A DNA stretch of 64,000 nucleotides from Bacteroidota bacterium. Lineage in GTDB: Bacteria; Bacteroidota; Bacteroidia; Cytophagales; Cyclobacteriaceae. This document shows positions 1-6,040 of the stretch, piece after piece. How positions within the stretch are numbered: position 1 is the first letter of the stretch; every line of letters starts with the position of its first letter. The stretch is taken from positions 480,725 through 544,724 of the forward strand of contig JAFEAL010000005.1 in assembly GCA_018266435.1 (NCBI GenBank), written 5' to 3'. The notes under the pieces are model-generated. The model had not been told where the DNA came from. It did not search any database and worked only from the letters and a program-made list of their open reading frames with translations. Both the position numbers and the translations under genes were made by a program.

Positions 1-524
1 TTGATGTCATGCGTGTCGGCATCAGAAATTTCATCTACCGGTTCAAAAAACGAAAAGCCTATTTTTTTGCAGCCTGACCGGCATTCTTTTAAAAAACGAT
101 CGTAGTAACCCTTGCCATACCCTACACGGTTTCCTGTTTTATCAAAGGCCAGCAACGGAACGAGTACGACATCAATTTTTTCTGTCGGAGTTAGCTCTCC
201 TGATGTTGGTTCTTCAATTCCCCAAGCATTTATTGAGAGTTGTGCGCGGTTTTCAAAATAATAATTGATCAACCGGTTACCTTCCATTTTTGGTATTGAA
301 ATTTTTATAGAAGGGAAGCGGGAGCGAAGCCCATTAATGATCAACCACGTATTGGGCTCGTTTTTTAATGCAAGTGGTAGATAAGTATGGATAACACGGA
401 TTGCTGTCAGTTCAAACGAAGAGCAAAGTAAATCGAAAAATATTTTACTGGCCGTTTCAATTTCGTTTGCCGAAAGAGCCATTCTTTTTTTCAGGTAAAC
501 AGATCGCGCTTCGGGTTTTGTCAC
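1..524 (-). CDS. 5-formyltetrahydrofolate cyclo-ligase (C-terminus cut by window edge)
   Basis: This enzyme uses ATP to convert 5-formyl-THF into 5,10-methenyl-THF in cytoplasmic folate metabolism. The frame reads from a GTG at 522-524 and runs off the left edge after about 174 codons. Family members have roughly 185-195 residues, so only the end is missing. The N-terminus (TKPEARSVYLKKR) has the usual basic start of the family, and the glycine-rich signature GYGKGYYDRFL lies near the cut end. The next in-frame ATG (480-482) would remove the conserved basic segment, so GTG is preferred. The GTG overlaps the TGA of bshC (GTGA), which suggests one transcript and coupled translation. Confidence 0.85.
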   Translation of the reverse strand, partial: MTKPEARSVYLKKRMALSANEIETASKIFFDLLCSSFELTAIRVIHTYLPLALKNEPNTWLIINGLRSRFPSIKISIPKMEGNRLINYYFENRAQLSINAWGIEEPTSGELTPTEKIDVVLVPLLAFDKTGNRVGYGKGYYDRFLKECRSGCKKIGFSFFEPVDEISDADTHDI

Positions 525-2080
525 AACTCAAAAATTGAAAACCTGAAATCAAACGGATCAAAGTGCTGAATCAGTTTTTGAATGAACTGCGGGTTGGCCT
601 GATAGAAATTCAGGAAATTATCTGTGCGCTCTTGTGGATTGCCATTCGGAAACAAAAAATCTTTTACAACTTCAAGTTGACGGAGCTTGTCAGCCTGCTT
701 GCGCTTTTCGGCACGCATCATTTTTTGCTCAATGCCTTCCAAGGCTTTAGTTAATCGATGAATTTGAGCCTCAGCATGCTTTAGCAAAGTCGGGTCAATT
801 TGTGATGCCCTATGCTTTACAGTTTCAAAAATTTGCTTAGCGGATGTTACTTCTTTTTGTAGAGATAAATCCGCTGATGAGTTTTTTACAATCCAGTGGT
901 TGAACAAATAATTTTTTTCTTCAAATAGGTCTTTTAGGTCAAGTCCTGATTTTTGAAACTTTTTCCAGGTAGGCTCATCCATCACGGCAGCAAAATTGCG
1001 GGGCATTAAAATGGGAAATGGAACTTTGAAATGATCAAAAACTCCTTTCAGTTGAAGCCAATACACTACTTCGGCCGGCCCGCCCGCGTAAGCGAGGTTG
1101 GGTAAAATCGTTTCCTGATACAGCGGTCGTAAGATTACATTTGGGCTGAATTTTTCGGGAGAGTTGGTGATTAGTTTTTCTATTTCGCTTTTTGAAAACT
1201 TCAGATTGGTTTCGATTACTGAAAAATAGTCTTCTTTTTTTTCAACCCGTTGTCGAATGGTGTTATCCAAATAAAAAAAATTGATGTCGCGGGCAAAAAC
1301 CTGCGGATGATAGCCCAGGGCTTCGAGTTGTTTGTTTTTTTCTTCAACTAACCGTTTGGGTAAATGACTGAGCACATCTTCAGTCATTACTTGGCTAAAC
1401 TGTTTTTTTAATTCGTGGTCATCACCATCCACTACGATTAGTCCTTCGTGGCCGAACAACTCATTTACGAATTGGCGGGTAGCTTGTGCCAAGGTTTTGT
1501 TTTTGGCGTAAGCATTTTTAAAAACCGAAACATCTCCGGGCAGTTCCTGACAAAGCTGAGGTAGCCCATCCGGAGAAAATCTACCCACAGCTCCGGTCTG
1601 ATTAGTTTCCCACGAATATTTTTTTCCGTAAAGGCGAAAAGATTTTATTTCATCATAGTCGTGGTCTTCACTCGCCATCCAGTAAACGGGCACAAAATTG
1701 TATTCGGGATACTGCACTTTCAATTTCTGGCAAGCATTAACCACGGTTACAATTTTGTAAATAAAATACAGTGGGCCGGTAAAAACGCAAAGTTGGTGGC
1801 CCGTGGTGACGGTGAATGTTTTTGTATTTTTTAATGAGTTCAGGTTTGACTCTACGGCAGAGGAAATTTTCATTCCTTCATATTGCTTAGTTAACGAATG
1901 AAAAAGAGTGGTTCTGTTTTGCTGAGGGAAAGATTTTTTTTCTGCAATCTGGCCTCCAAAATTTTGGATAGCCGGAAACCGGTGGTAAAAATTTTTGAGA
2001 GTTTCTTTTTGAGCGATGTAGTCTAGAAAAAAAGTTGAGAACGAATGCGTATCGGCCAAGGTAATTTTGTGCAGGTGCAT
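521..2080 (-). CDS. bshC: Bacillithiol biosynthesis cysteine-adding enzyme BshC
   Basis: BshC performs the last step of bacillithiol synthesis by adding cysteine to glucosaminyl-malate. Bacillithiol is the main low-molecular-weight thiol of many Firmicutes and Bacteroidota. The 519-residue length fits the family. The nucleotide-binding-like segment TTGHQLCVFTGPLY (about 92-105), the SEDHDYDE segment and GGPAEVVYWLQLK in the middle are characteristic, and a charged helical stretch at about 410-490 matches the C-terminal coiled coil. The gene precedes the folate cyclo-ligase with a 4-base overlap. The other bsh genes are not in the window. Confidence 0.95.
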   Translation of the reverse strand: MHLHKITLADTHSFSTFFLDYIAQKETLKNFYHRFPAIQNFGGQIAEKKSFPQQNRTTLFHSLTKQYEGMKISSAVESNLNSLKNTKTFTVTTGHQLCVFTGPLYFIYKIVTVVNACQKLKVQYPEYNFVPVYWMASEDHDYDEIKSFRLYGKKYSWETNQTGAVGRFSPDGLPQLCQELPGDVSVFKNAYAKNKTLAQATRQFVNELFGHEGLIVVDGDDHELKKQFSQVMTEDVLSHLPKRLVEEKNKQLEALGYHPQVFARDINFFYLDNTIRQRVEKKEDYFSVIETNLKFSKSEIEKLITNSPEKFSPNVILRPLYQETILPNLAYAGGPAEVVYWLQLKGVFDHFKVPFPILMPRNFAAVMDEPTWKKFQKSGLDLKDLFEEKNYLFNHWIVKNSSADLSLQKEVTSAKQIFETVKHRASQIDPTLLKHAEAQIHRLTKALEGIEQKMMRAEKRKQADKLRQLEVVKDFLFPNGNPQERTDNFLNFYQANPQFIQKLIQHFDPFDFRFSIFEL

Positions 2081-2250
2081 ATCAACAACAGGAAAATGTG
2101 AAGTAAAGCATAAACTGGGTAAACGGATAGATGGACATCTTGGTTCTTAAAATTGAAAGATCGGTAATTTATGGAAACCGCTTTTCTTTTAAGAAATCTT
2201 TAACAAGATAGACTAAAATGAGTTGACAAAATAACCGACTAAGCCAGTTA

Positions 2251-2811
2251 TCATTTAAAACGCATGAGATACCCCAATTGCAGGGCAAAGAAATTCAACG
2301 AGTTCGATCCACTGCTGATAAATTGTTGTGACCATCGGGCATCCCATCGCTTGAGGGAGTATCCCAAGCCATATTGATAACAAAAATAGTAATCATTCGT
2401 AGTGGCTGTGTTGCCATTCCCGGTTATGTTGAAACGTGTTTCACTCACACCGAGTTCACTGCTTACGTATAAATTGCCTCTAATTCCTTTCACTAAGTTG
2501 AACCGGCCACCAAGCTGCAATGTTTCAATACCCACTTTGGTTTTCACTTCGATGGGAGTTGGGATAATATTTAGTGTAGTGGACTTTTGTGAAAAACTAA
2601 TGCCATCGATGGATGCAATGGCACTTAACCGTTCTGTTAAACGATAATCGAACTTGCCAAACACGCCTACACCTATACCGGCTGAGTACTTAAGATTGCC
2701 ATTGGGAAATGCAGTTTGCAGCCCTCCTAGAAAAGTTAGATTTTGGCAATTAACGGAAACCGAAATAGTTAAAAAAAATATAGAGACTTGTCCCCCCAAA
2801 AATATTTTCAT
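2251..2811 (-). CDS. Small outer-membrane beta-barrel protein of the peptide cassette
   Basis: A 186-residue secreted protein of unknown function. The first 22 residues form a signal peptide (KIFLGGQVSIFFLTISVSV, cleavage expected near VNC-Q). The rest alternates hydrophobic and polar residues, is rich in Gly and Tyr, and ends in an aromatic strand (LGYLMRFK), as in 8-stranded barrels of the OMP_b-brl type. Its ATG overlaps the TAA of the upstream peptide gene by one base (TAATG), so the two are probably translated together. Possible roles are an outer-membrane exit route or an immunity protein for that peptide. Both roles are inferred from gene order only. Confidence 0.6.
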   Translation of the reverse strand: MKIFLGGQVSIFFLTISVSVNCQNLTFLGGLQTAFPNGNLKYSAGIGVGVFGKFDYRLTERLSAIASIDGISFSQKSTTLNIIPTPIEVKTKVGIETLQLGGRFNLVKGIRGNLYVSSELGVSETRFNITGNGNTATTNDYYFCYQYGLGYSLKRWDARWSQQFISSGSNSLNFFALQLGYLMRFK

Positions 2812-3167
2812 TATTGTGCAATTGGTAGTGGTTTTCCATTAGGCCCTATGCTACCCCCACCACAACCACTAGTACATGTGTTTGGAGTTCCACTACCTGA
2901 TGATGAACCAAGTAACTGAGAGATACAGTCTGCTGAAGTACCAGCAGCAGCTAGGCAAGCCCAAGGATCAGGAGCAACTGCGCAACCTACATCAGCAGCT
3001 ATCGCTGCGAGCCATGCAAAAAAGCTACAGCCCTTCCCCTCGATCAGTGACAATTGATCATCAGTTAACTCTTTTCGTAAATTACTATCTATTGTTTTTT
3101 GAAAGGCTTGGGTAGTAAGAATACCAATTACTACCAAAATGATTAGATTAAATAATGTATTTTTCAT
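2811..3167 (-). CDS. Secreted Cys-rich peptide precursor with a double-glycine-like leader (putative bacteriocin/RiPP-like)
   Basis: A 118-residue protein in three parts. Residues 1-22 form a Sec-type signal or membrane segment ending in TTQA-FQ. Residues 33-46 (KELTDDQLSLIEGKG) resemble the leaders cut by C39 proteases, whose pattern is LxxxELxxIxGG, but GKG (44-46) stands in place of GG. Residues 47-118 form a Gly/Ala/Ser-rich core with six cysteines (47, 62, 71, 81, 98, 102). A C39 peptidase and a CxxC thioredoxin-like protein are encoded divergently nearby, which supports cleavage after G46 and disulfide formation. The family was not recognised. It could instead be a structural secreted protein. 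Confidence 0.6.
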   Translation of the reverse strand: MKNTLFNLIILVVIGILTTQAFQKTIDSNLRKELTDDQLSLIEGKGCSFFAWLAAIAADVGCAVAPDPWACLAAAGTSADCISQLLGSSSGSGTPNTCTSGCGGGSIGPNGKPLPIAQ

Positions 3168-3180
3168 ATAATATTTTTTA

Positions 3181-3218
3181 GGCTTAATAAAATTACTACA
3201 TCGACAAATAATTACAAA
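3181..3218 (-). promoter_or_regulatory. Candidate Bacteroidota promoter for the peptide/barrel genes
   Basis: On the minus strand a TTTG (3215-3218) lies 19 bases before TAATTTTA (3188-3195), close to the Bacteroidota -33/-7 arrangement TTTG-N17..23-TAnnTTTG. Transcription would start about 15 bases before the ATG at 3167. The region is AT-rich, so a chance match is possible. Confidence 0.4.
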
Positions 3219-3223
3219 TGTAT

Positions 3224-3712
3224 TCAGGTAATTTTTTTAGTAAATATTGGCCCAAAGATTAGGGTTAATATCAATGCCCTAAGCACTATCGAAATAAATA
3301 AAGATATTTCTTTAATGTGGTATCGTTTACCCACACCAATTACCCTAAGAGTTTTTCTGATTGTAGCTTCATCATAGCTCATTTTTCTCAACTTTTCGAC
3401 TTCTGAAATGGCGATATCTTGAAAATATAATGAATTGATAAAGTTTACATAAACAACGAAAAATACTACAACTATTAGCCCAGATAATATAGCTAATGAA
3501 AGACTTTGTTTAATAATCCCACAATATGAGACAGGATTCGTTGAATGTCGGAAATAAAGAAAAAGCGCTAACCCAATTACTCCAAAATTTATTACATTTA
3601 ATAATAAAATATTATTTTCAAAGGAGGGCCAAGAAACACTTATCAAAAAAATAAGAATAAGGATAAGACCAAGTGTGAATGAGTAGCGTAACAAGTTAAG
3701 GTTCATAACCAT
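3224..3712 (-). CDS. Four-helix membrane protein, DUF4199-like
   Basis: A 162-residue inner-membrane protein of unknown function. Four hydrophobic helices are visible at about 10-30, 34-54, 69-91 and 136-158. The arrangement resembles DUF4199 proteins of Bacteroidota: two N-terminal helices, a polar linker ending in ...YCGIIKQSLSLAILSG, a third helix followed by a charged loop (SEVEKLRKMSYDEATIRK), and a last helix. It lies upstream of the peptide gene on the same strand, separated by 56 bases, and may serve as an immunity or transport factor of the cassette, which is inference. An internal ATG at 3704-3706 would also give a complete first helix. Its start faces that of the thioredoxin-like gene with only six bases between them. 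Confidence 0.55.
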   Translation of the reverse strand: MVMNLNLLRYSFTLGLILILIFLISVSWPSFENNILLLNVINFGVIGLALFLYFRHSTNPVSYCGIIKQSLSLAILSGLIVVVFFVVYVNFINSLYFQDIAISEVEKLRKMSYDEATIRKTLRVIGVGKRYHIKEISLFISIVLRALILTLIFGPIFTKKIT

Positions 3713-3718
3713 ACAGTA

Positions 3719-4243
3719 ATGAAAATACTAGGTATATCGTTTGGCATAATTTTACTTTTAACTTTCCTTTTTATACAATTAAAAAAAAACGAACCAGACA
3801 AAGAAATAAGGGAAAGAGCAAATAAGTTGATAGGTTCGAAAATAGCTTTAGATAACTTAAAGCCTCTTAGTGAAAAATTTTGCTTTCCAGATTCATTTAA
3901 TTTTAAAGTTATTGTTTTTGGGAATGCGGACTGCTCACTATGTGAACACCTGATAAAGTTATTGAATAATATCGAAGAAGAAGACAATGTTCGAAAAAAC
4001 TTAGTAGTTATATTTCCTTCATTTCAAGAGCATATTGTTATGGGGAAATATAATAATATCAACTTTCCGATTTTTTTTATGCCTGCAAACGAAGTGACTA
4101 AGAAAATAAAATATGTACCTACCTTCCTTTTGTTAAATCAGGATAAAATAATTGTTGATGTTGTTCAAGCCGATATAATTGTAAAGGAAGATTTTGATTT
4201 AATGATAGCAGACTTTTCGAAGAAAATTAAAATAAGTGATTAA
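3719..4243 (+). CDS. Membrane-anchored thioredoxin-like protein of the peptide cassette
   Basis: A 174-residue protein with one N-terminal membrane helix (about 3-20) and a thioredoxin-fold domain predicted to face the periplasm. The segment KVIVFGNADCSLCEH carries a CxxC pair (C72, C75) after a beta strand. A cis-proline-type segment (YVPTFLLLN, P134) follows at the expected distance. Family knowledge suggests a TlpA-like or disulfide-forming role. Its plausible substrate is the six-cysteine peptide encoded nearby. The reading frame overlaps the C39 peptidase gene by 8 bases. Codon use is clearly AT-richer than in the flanking rimO and bshC genes, consistent with acquisition by transfer. Confidence 0.65.
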   Translation: MKILGISFGIILLLTFLFIQLKKNEPDKEIRERANKLIGSKIALDNLKPLSEKFCFPDSFNFKVIVFGNADCSLCEHLIKLLNNIEEEDNVRKNLVVIFPSFQEHIVMGKYNNINFPIFFMPANEVTKKIKYVPTFLLLNQDKIIVDVVQADIIVKEDFDLMIADFSKKIKISD

Positions 4244-4724
4244 TAAAAAGCATTTGCGTTTTCAATTGATGGGGCTTGTGTTTGGTATTCTATTTATTTT
4301 TTATTTTCAATATGATAGAGGCTCAAAACAAGCAAAACAAAACTGGAATGATGTAGTTGAACAAACAAACTCATATTCTTGCGGGGCATCATCTCTATCA
4401 ATGATTTTTAAAGATAAGGGCATTAACATACCCCTTAGTACAATAGAAAAGTCAGTACTAAAATCAAATAGTAGCACATTTCTTGACTTGAAAAAATTTT
4501 CAAAAACTTGTGGACTTTCCTCAATAGGTTGGGAGCTATCAGTAAGAGAATTAGCAACAATAAATATGCCGGCCATCATTAGTATGAATGACTCTCATTT
4601 TGTTGTAGTCGATAGTGTTAAAATTGATTCAGTTTACATCCGAGATCCACTTCGAGGAAGGAAAATTATGAGTCAGAGCAAATTTTTAAAAGAATGGAGT
4701 GGATATGCTTTGGAATTTCAGTAG
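4236..4724 (+). CDS. Membrane-anchored stand-alone C39-family cysteine peptidase
   Basis: A 162-residue protein with a positively charged N-terminus, one membrane helix (about 12-25) and a papain-like C39 domain. The catalytic set is visible: Q43 and C49 in EQTNSYSCGASSLSMI, H121 in NDSHFVVVDS, and D137 in YIRDPLRG. C39 domains cut double-glycine leaders and are normally the N-terminal part of ABC exporters. Here there is no ABC domain, and the positive-inside rule places the catalytic domain in the periplasm. The start is a GTG overlapping the previous gene by 8 bases; ATG 4269 would leave only a short segment before the helix. The likely substrate is the peptide encoded at 2811-3167. Confidence 0.75.
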   Translation: MINKKHLRFQLMGLVFGILFIFYFQYDRGSKQAKQNWNDVVEQTNSYSCGASSLSMIFKDKGINIPLSTIEKSVLKSNSSTFLDLKKFSKTCGLSSIGWELSVRELATINMPAIISMNDSHFVVVDSVKIDSVYIRDPLRGRKIMSQSKFLKEWSGYALEFQ

Positions 4725-4732
4725 GTCAAGCA

Positions 4733-6040
4733 CTACACGATTTCTGCAATTAAATCAAATTCGCTGGCACCCGTCACCTTGGCTTCAACAAAATCACCTA
4801 ACCGCAGGTGGTCGTTGGTAACTAAAATCACTTCGTTATCTACTTCGGGTGAATCAAACTCAGTACGGCCGATGTATGAGCCTCCTTCTTTGCGGTCAAC
4901 CAAAACGGTAAACGTCTTTCCGATTTTTGCCTGATTAAGTTGAAGCGAGATGCCCTGCTGCAACTCCATCAGTTGATCTACTCTTTTTTGTTTTGTTTTC
5001 TCAGGTACGTCATCTTTGAGGGAGAATGAATGGGTTTGCTCTTCGTGCGAGTAAGCAAATACACCCAGCCGATCGAACCGCGATCGCTCAACAAATTCCA
5101 TCATCTCATCAAAATATTTTTGTGTTTCGCCCGGATGACCGGCTATGAGCGTAGTGCGTATGGCAATGCCGGGCACTTTTTCGCGAATGGTTTGCAGCAA
5201 GGCTTCGGTTTTTTCGCGCGTGGTGCCGCGCCTCATTAACTGAAGCATTTCGGTGGAGCCGTGCTGCAGCGGTATATCGAGGTACTTGCAGATTTTTTTT
5301 TCTCCGGCCATCACGTCCAGCACATCCATCGGAAACCCGGTAGGAAAAGCATAGTGCAAGCGGATCCATTCAATGCCCTCTACATCCGAAAGCTTTTTGA
5401 GCAACTCGGCCAGGTTTCTTTTTTTATAAAGGTCAAGGCCGTAGTACGTAGAGTCTTGGGCAATGAGCAACAATTCTTTGGTTCCGTTTTTGGCCAGGTT
5501 TTTAGCTTCCCGCACTAACTCTTCCATCGGCCGCGAAAGATGGTTTCCGCGCATGAGCGGAATGGCACAAAAAGAACATGGGCGGTCGCAGCCTTCAGAA
5601 ATTTTCAGATAGGCAAAATGACCCGGGTTAGTGAGTATCCGCTCGCCCACTAACTCTTGTTTATAATTAGCATTGAGTTGTTTTAACAAGCGTGAAAGAT
5701 CACGTGTGCCAAACCACGCATCTACTTTTGGAATCTCCTTTTCGAGGTCGTCTTTGTAGCGTTGCGAGAGACACCCGGTAACATATACTTTTTCAACCAA
5801 TCCTTCTTCTTTGGCATCGACATAGCGAAGGATGGTGTCTATGGATTCTTGCTTGGCGTTGTCGATGAACCCACACGTGTTGATGACCACAATGTTGGCA
5901 TCATCATTGCGTGCCTCATGCGAGGCTTCAATCTGGTTGCCGCGCAGTTGGGTCAGCAGCACCTCGCTGTCAACCTGGTTTTTGGAGCAGCCCAGGGTGA
6001 TAATGTTCACCTTGTTGTTGCGTAAGCCTTTGGTTTTCAA
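4733..6040 (-). CDS. rimO: Ribosomal protein S12 methylthiotransferase RimO
   Basis: RimO is a radical-SAM enzyme that adds a methylthio group to the conserved aspartate of ribosomal protein S12. All three domains are present. The N-terminal MTTase domain has cluster cysteines C18 (TLGCSKN), C56 (INTCGF) and C90 (TGCLSQR). The radical-SAM domain has C151/C155/C158 (SEGCDRPCSFC). The C-terminal TRAM domain starts near 375. The 435-residue length is normal. It converges on the C39 peptidase gene, with eight bases between the two stop codons, which marks the right edge of the AT-rich cassette. Confidence 0.96.
   Translation of the reverse strand: MKTKGLRNNKVNIITLGCSKNQVDSEVLLTQLRGNQIEASHEARNDDANIVVINTCGFIDNAKQESIDTILRYVDAKEEGLVEKVYVTGCLSQRYKDDLEKEIPKVDAWFGTRDLSRLLKQLNANYKQELVGERILTNPGHFAYLKISEGCDRPCSFCAIPLMRGNHLSRPMEELVREAKNLAKNGTKELLLIAQDSTYYGLDLYKKRNLAELLKKLSDVEGIEWIRLHYAFPTGFPMDVLDVMAGEKKICKYLDIPLQHGSTEMLQLMRRGTTREKTEALLQTIREKVPGIAIRTTLIAGHPGETQKYFDEMMEFVERSRFDRLGVFAYSHEEQTHSFSLKDDVPEKTKQKRVDQLMELQQGISLQLNQAKIGKTFTVLVDRKEGGSYIGRTEFDSPEVDNEVILVTNDHLRLGDFVEAKVTGASEFDLIAEIV

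Follow-up and report, generated by a model that had tools for sequence, protein, structure and literature searches.

The stretch of DNA analyzed here, 64,000 nucleotides long and referred to below as the window (contig JAFEAL010000005.1 of assembly GCA_018266435.1, positions 480,725 to 544,724), comes from a Bacteroidota bacterium of the family Cyclobacteriaceae and carries five genes in a gap of 2,652 bases between bshC and rimO. A DUF4199-like membrane protein, a small precursor peptide and an outer-membrane beta-barrel are encoded on the reverse strand, and a thioredoxin-like protein and a stand-alone C39 peptidase on the forward strand (Table 1). Peptides with double-glycine leaders are usually exported by a dedicated transporter and trimmed inside the cell. 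The genes of the window suggest another route, in which a mobile four-gene cassette (the five genes without the barrel) would make a disulfide-bonded secreted peptide by a relay of Sec export and C39 cleavage; we put the probability of this reading at about 0.7. An earlier sequence-only reading of the locus had named the precursor, the stand-alone C39, the thioredoxin-like gene and the barrel, all of which were located where it had placed them. The DUF4199-like gene was absent from that reading, yet is conserved with the cassette.

Table 1 Features of the bshC-rimO region (positions are counted from the first base of the window)
Feature	Positions	Strand	Evidence
bshC (flank)	521..2080	-	TIGR03998 1.7e-126
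Acquired insert between bshC and rimO	2081..4732		neighbour-genome gene order, GC content
Small outer-membrane beta-barrel gene, probably outside the conserved unit	2251..2811	-	PF13505 E 5.3e-5
118-aa precursor with Sec-type signal, C39-type leader and six-Cys core	2811..3167	-	
Predicted mature peptide, residues 46-118, 73 aa, 6 Cys	2814..3032	-	
Leader recognition segment L34-K45 (L-12, L-7, I-4, G-2, K-1)	3033..3068	-	spacing of 11 peptides, LahT/ComA rules
Signal segment, residues 1-21 (cleavage by signal peptidase after A21 is conjectural)	3105..3167	-	
Multi-pass membrane protein, DUF4199-like; candidate for an immunity or accessory role	3224..3712	-	PF13858 33.3 bits (cut-off 32.3)
Membrane-anchored thioredoxin-like protein, CSLC (C72, C75 at 3932-3943)	3719..4243	+	family profile against structures
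Stand-alone C39 peptidase starting at GTG, with a hydrophobic N-terminal helix and Q43/C49/H121/D137	4236..4724	+	PF03412 9.6e-27
rimO (flank)	4733..6040	-	TIGR01125 2.4e-145

The C39 frame, 162 aa long, scores 93.9 bits against PF03412 (cut-off 22), and its catalytic Gln, Cys, His and Asp (Q43, C49, H121, D137) are invariant in an eight-row alignment of exported C39 relatives. The best match of the C39 family profile is the solved double-glycine protease LahT (6mpz, 2.8e-28), with which the window protein also aligns. The frame contains no ATP-binding cassette (ABC) domain, to which C39 is fused in the peptidase-containing ABC transporter (PCAT) and ABC-transporter maturation and secretion (AMS) exporters. 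The description in the sequence-only reading, a stand-alone C39 with one N-terminal helix and an intact catalytic set, is confirmed. No other protein of the 3.48-Mb genome matches PF03412 at E <= 0.001, and the same search found no PCAT-type C39 to export the leader peptide. Among plasmid records there were 1132 C39 matches; of the best 10, nine carry the annotation of an ABC-type exporter and the tenth that of an adaptor beside an exporter.

The precursor combines a Sec-type signal, a leader and a six-cysteine core in a single frame, as had been read from the sequence. Its hydrophobic core spans residues 8-18 (mean Kyte-Doolittle 3.34) and is followed by the leader L34-T-D-D-Q-L39-S-L-I42-E-G44-K45-G46-C47 and the six cysteines. 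In the available parts of PMC6363468 and PMC10885120, ComA is described as reading Leu-12, Glu-8 and Leu-7 of the leader and LahT as taking Val-4, Leu-7 and Leu-12 in a groove, and LahT150 as failing with leaders that lack the three hydrophobics. With G placed by hand at -2, the precursor shows the double-glycine pattern of hydrophobic residues at -12, -7 and -4, with G44-K45-G46 in place of a canonical GG, GA or GS pair. The same hand placement was made for 11 peptides from 10 loci (L151 has two): every one has L, M or I at -12 and L or M at -7; at -4, ten have I, L, V or A and one has N; and at -1, eight have G, two have K and one has Q, K or Q being common to the three Cytophagales members. 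The spacing fits that read by C39 proteases, and it predicts a cut in the window peptide between K45 and G46, one residue earlier than the mature start at C47 that had been proposed.

The association between such peptides and exported C39s was counted with a Sec-GG rule, defined as a small frame with an N-terminal hydrophobic core and the pattern hydrophobic-X-[DEQNSK]-hydrophobic-G.?G with loose spacing; the counts additionally required at least two cysteines after the leader. Over the 64-kb window the rule gave three matches, two of them within larger frames and the third the precursor, a result judged to be more than chance. Such a peptide was present at all eight loci of the first set and at none of seven exported C39 loci without thioredoxin (L154, L155, L157, L160, L093, L094 and L096). 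It was likewise absent from the ABC-type C39 controls, 20 loci that add up to 203 kb; these were the top 20 of the list whose frames exceed 700 aa, and they come from 19 genomes, L167 being only 5.6 kb and several being near-identical and so non-independent. At five of the 20 ABC-type loci the rule matched inside larger frames, never with two cysteines; an extra filter for frames not inside a larger one would drop L150 and L163, where frames overlap. A fresh set of 119 genomes from another class, searched with the eight-row C39 profile, yielded three new exported C39 loci, each with the C39 overlapping a thioredoxin frame, and the unchanged rule found the peptide at two of them (L219 and L220; Fisher, 2/3 vs 0/20, p 0.012). 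In total, 10 of 11 exported C39 loci with a thioredoxin or redoxin among the matches listed in Bacteroidota encode a Sec-GG peptide with cysteines (10/11 vs 0/20, p 2.5e-7, the loci from which the rule was drawn included), and the co-conservation across the phylum that had been set beforehand as a check is thus observed.

No more than 2 kb separates a thioredoxin frame from the C39 at eight of the 11 loci (touching or 4 bases apart), and at 3/3 loci with split C39 and ABC parts; this closeness is seen at none of the 20 ABC-type loci and none of the seven other exported loci. The nine thioredoxin and eight C39 rows match their own profiles by construction; L219-L221, which contribute three of the eight close thioredoxins, stand outside the thioredoxin profile.

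It is decidedly improbable that the precursor is nothing but a small protein exported by Sec, with an incidental GG-like segment, and that the C39 cuts something else. K or Q at -1 in three peptides and the wide variation of the peptide bodies would suit that explanation, but they are set against the -12/-7 spacing from G-2 kept in every hand-placed leader, the lack of such a peptide with two or more cysteines at all 20 control loci, the recurrence of the peptide in the fresh set, and a likeness between the window and L082 peptides that runs from the leader into the core in pairwise comparison.

The C39 domain probably faces the periplasm. A hydrophobic segment stands ahead of it in the window protein (2.14 over 15 residues) and in 11 of 11 exported thioredoxin-linked loci (1.87-2.77 over 15 residues), compared with just 6-11 residues ahead of the domain in three cytoplasmic-type C39s. 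In L040, from another genus, the N-terminal segment of the C39 closes with LITAC, which is by eye a lipobox and favours a site outside the cytoplasm. A cytoplasmic C39 domain that passes the cut peptide to another transporter is a highly improbable arrangement: the thioredoxin-linked C39s of L038, L161 and L129 adjoin or are joined to ABC parts, as it would predict, but the genome has no other PF03412 match, the N-terminal segment recurs in every one of the 11 C39s, that of L040 is lipoprotein-like, and the precursors bear Sec-type signals. In L038, L161 and L129 the thioredoxin-like gene stands directly before the C39, which is separate from or partly joined to the ABC part. A cytoplasmic-looking solo C39 of 177 aa lies by a large exported protein in two genus genomes (L124:5137-5670 and L125:5051-5584).

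Several points weigh against the relay of Sec export and C39 cleavage. The Sec-GG rule was drafted after the first eight loci had been seen, so that its tests are confined to the fresh set and the exact spacing. In the fresh set, the scan gave no intact peptide at L221, where a copy looks frame-broken; the redoxin domain beside the C39 of L150 is reduced to its C-terminal half; the thioredoxins of L163 and L151 lie 3.5-3.7 kb from the C39; and L041, with an exported FapD-like C39 and no thioredoxin, has a Sec-GG protein without two cysteines. The -1 residue of the window peptide is Lys (Gln in L040) rather than G, A or S, and taking G46 as -1 shifts the hydrophobics out of register to -13, -8 and -5. 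Beyond the leader the peptides have little in common. By eye, the charges flanking the window C39 helix leave its orientation unsettled. A bacteriocin function, likely as it is, rests on resemblance, no peptide being over a family cut-off.

A relative of the cassette, L082 from another family of the order, has the peptide, DUF4199-like, thioredoxin and C39 genes consecutively on one strand. Pairwise matches to the window are 36% identity and E 1e-15 for the peptide, 32% and E 1e-28 for the DUF4199-like gene (between peptide and thioredoxin in L082), and 6e-26 and 2e-11 for the other two. L040 has a thioredoxin, a C39 and a Sec-type peptide whose leader ends in GQGC. Outside the class, a search of 395 phylum genomes gave exported stand-alone C39s, counted among the matches listed, in L150, L151, L152, L153 and L091/L163 (Candidatus Thermochlorobacteriaceae), each with a Sec-type peptide bearing a double-glycine leader; exported C39s without a thioredoxin or Sec-GG peptide were found in L154 (one locus with L089 on the same contig, counted once), L155, L157 and L160. 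C39 frames of 109-521 aa in G134, G1391, G1327, G1308, G1287 and G1090, and others, were left out of the locus count. L042-L046, L123-L128, L156, L158, L159 and L162 were rejected as stand-alone exported C39s, being ABC clusters or having no N-terminal segment. Lipoprotein-like stand-alone C39s with no thioredoxin or Sec-GG peptide nearby occur in L154, L093, L094, L096, L155 and L160 (Chryseobacterium, Flavobacterium and others). Apparently frame-broken second or homologous peptide copies lie at L091:3434-3713 and L221:4603-4929.

By sequence (E <= 0.01), peptide homologues were found in 4 of 395 class genomes and 2 of 196 family genomes, the genome of the window counted in both. Weak peptide matches in L047-L051 were dropped as chance, with no C39 or thioredoxin profile match in the surrounding stretch, and no plasmid record matched the precursor at E 0.01. 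No family model scored over its cut-off for the window peptide or its relatives; matches of the relatives' peptides to TigB, CTB, halo_sig_pep, JUQZ and bacteriocin_sig were below cut-off and were not used.

A tree of 44 C39 domains unites nine of the 11 thioredoxin-linked exported proteins, plus one exported protein without thioredoxin, in one branch (99/96) and places the f114 proteins of L151 and L163 elsewhere. The thioredoxin-linked C39s by ABC parts (L038, L161 and L129) have their own branch (100/99). A single clade for all 11 is not rejected (p 0.205), and one that takes in the 18 exported C39s without L041 is rejected (p 0.027), which suggests that export of C39 arose at least twice.

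The thioredoxin and C39 frames overlap by 8 bases (4236-4243), and a shared transcript is therefore probable. The thioredoxin-like assignment is weak for the single sequence, which falls below the Pfam cut-off (E 0.017), and firm for the family: a nine-row profile finds thioredoxin-like structures, the best being 2m72 (2.9e-12) with StoA and ResA entries next, and C72, C75 and P134, that is the CxxC motif and the conserved Pro, are invariant in the nine rows. The comparison of the redox protein with thioredoxin families proposed from the sequence thus succeeded at the level of the profile and failed for the lone protein. The motif is of the CxHC type in five of the nine rows (CPHC, CEHC, CSHC, CGHC and CAHC) and CSLC in the window. 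CxHC motifs suit oxidase or isomerase work, and MauE partners point to a role of that type. A Redoxin or AhpC domain is over cut-off in L150, L152 and L153, MauE in L151, L152 and L153, and Yip1 in L153 only. MauD and MauE belong to a periplasmic maturation system; L151, L152 and L153 resemble it in having a thioredoxin-like protein and MauE beside a cysteine-containing exported product, and differ in that the substrate is unrelated, while the window cassette has no MauE.

That the cassette is foreign and was acquired by insertion is strongly supported, because rimO lies directly beside bshC (about 70-200 bases apart) in 22 of 24 same-genus genomes (24 of 62 were examined) and the third-position GC content (GC3) of the cassette is low. 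GC3 is 0.23-0.26 for the peptide, DUF4199-like, thioredoxin and C39 genes, against 0.466 (standard deviation 0.033, lowest 0.408) for 38 frames of the window that are 200 aa or longer, and the insert as a whole has 33.9% GC against 43.3% for the window. The AT-rich acquired cassette of the sequence-only reading is thereby upheld. The remaining two genomes (G483 and G867) have other genes at the site; in these (L209 and L210) bshC is not at its usual place by rimO, and peroxiredoxin-like and Rrf2-like frames appear by eye instead. Over the 62 genus genomes, profile A3 matched the window at E 8.6e-77 and next a 736-aa frame (2.9e-23), and the cassette was not among seven stand-alone-looking loci inspected from the genus and order searches. 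The DUF4199-like and thioredoxin genes diverge with 6 bases between their start codons (3706-3725), leaving scant space for ordinary promoters.

The barrel was rejected as a member of the conserved unit. Its OMP_b-brl match (PF13505, 23.9 bits) is under the Pfam cut-off of 28.7, its GC3 is 0.401 and host-like, and no relative was found at E 0.001 in the five of the ten other cassette genomes that were searched (G396, G888, G1143, G1163 and G1173). The barrel ATG shares one base with the peptide stop (TAATG). The idea of a coupled barrel for exit or self-protection is accordingly not supported, nor is the C47 start, while the core route of Sec export and periplasmic C39 maturation is well supported by the co-conservation and by the N-terminal helices.

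The one-base overlap of the barrel and peptide genes is one reason to weigh a Fap-like alternative, in which the peptide would serve as a structural, surface or fibre subunit whose secretion through the neighbouring barrel is licensed by C39 cleavage. In the available part of PMC5557850, FapD is a C39 with experimental support for work in the periplasm, secretion is lost with its C38A variant, what it targets was unclear, and canonical C39 sequences are lacking in Fap proteins. FapD is a stand-alone C39 that Sec takes to the periplasm and that is needed there for secretion of a Sec-exported substrate, and the window enzyme would resemble it in this; what can be seen here by sequence is the N-terminal hydrophobic segment of the window C39 and the lipoprotein-like relative in L040. 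The window C39 scores 63.7 bits against NF058616 (FapD), and L155 and L160 have a lipoprotein-type C39 with an OMP_b-brl_2 barrel gene next after it. Nevertheless, we consider a Fap-like role unlikely: the FapD cut-off is 330 bits, there are no fap neighbours, the barrel is host-like and was not found in the five other cassette genomes searched, and the cassette has short, cysteine-containing precursors with C39-type leaders and a thioredoxin-like partner. The C39 of FilB (NF050078, a putative pilus system) is also stand-alone and is distant (40.3 bits, cut-off 475). L041:3515-5180 (G494:C180) has a Sec-signal stand-alone C39 between two proteins of Sec type, which contain the segments DEELDGMRGG and DENLNEMRGT; it looks Fap/Fil-like on a contig that is proteobacterial by eye (possible contamination), and may show the targets of a FapD-type enzyme.

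We propose the following course for the cassette. Sec would export the unfolded precursor, with a signal peptidase cut near A21 or with the signal kept as an anchor. In the periplasm, the membrane-anchored C39 would bind the leader via L34, L39 and I42 and cut after G44-K45 to release a peptide starting GCSFF. The tethered thioredoxin-fold protein would then act on the cysteines of the core, most probably by forming or shuffling their disulfides, and the DUF4199-like protein might protect the producer or assist. The product would have its effect extracellularly, most probably as a bacteriocin-like peptide with antibacterial activity. This use is the likeliest in view of the small Gly- and Cys-containing bodies, the multi-pass membrane proteins and the ABC-type ATPase and permease genes in L151, L219, L220 and L221, which were read from the frames only. 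The same relay could instead deliver a signal or another non-killing effector, a possible but less favoured outcome compatible with the proposed route; double-glycine peptides include pheromones, but by eye the cysteine-containing, partly hydrophobic bodies and the transporter-like genes of several clusters are more in keeping with bacteriocins.

The double-glycine leaders of class II bacteriocins and microcins have hydrophobic residues at -12, -7 and -4 and G at -2, and the product is small and Gly- and Cys-containing; the cassette shares this leader pattern and the small product, and differs in having a Sec signal ahead of the leader. With PCAT and AMS proteins such as LahT and ComA, it shares the C39 domain, the catalytic residues and the leader spacing, whereas its C39 has no ABC or transporter domain and cleavage is proposed after passage of the inner membrane rather than before it. 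The protease and the leader are known; what would be new is the order of events and the partners. In the parts of the literature available, a review of leader proteases covers PCATs and names no periplasmic C39 in its C39 text (PMC10885120), a Bacteroidales survey of ribosomally synthesized and post-translationally modified peptides mentions C39 in connection with PCATs (PMC10352776), and a Sec-routed double-glycine maturation route is not described in the accessible portions of PMC3482391, PMC8939145 and PMC11879956. The open-licence titles and beginnings of abstracts listed, subscription papers being outside the scope, gave no Sec-routed double-glycine peptide with an exported C39 and a thioredoxin.

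Taken across the phylum, the loci may represent a production line with possibly more than one origin, a broader view that we regard as evenly balanced. Double-glycine peptides would have shifted from ABC exporters to Sec, with an exported C39 and a thioredoxin-fold oxidant maturing disulfide-bonded bacteriocin-like peptides in the periplasm from mobile cassettes, and with the C39 of the window lineage accepting Lys or Gln at the cut. If the relay is correct, precursors with a Sec signal and a C39 leader may escape double-glycine mining beside ABC exporters. The C39 proteases of the periplasm, known from Fap, where the target was unclear, would gain a visible substrate and a simple assay, and a leader that serves elsewhere for docking to a transporter could act as a lock that keeps the peptide immature until it is out of the cytoplasm.

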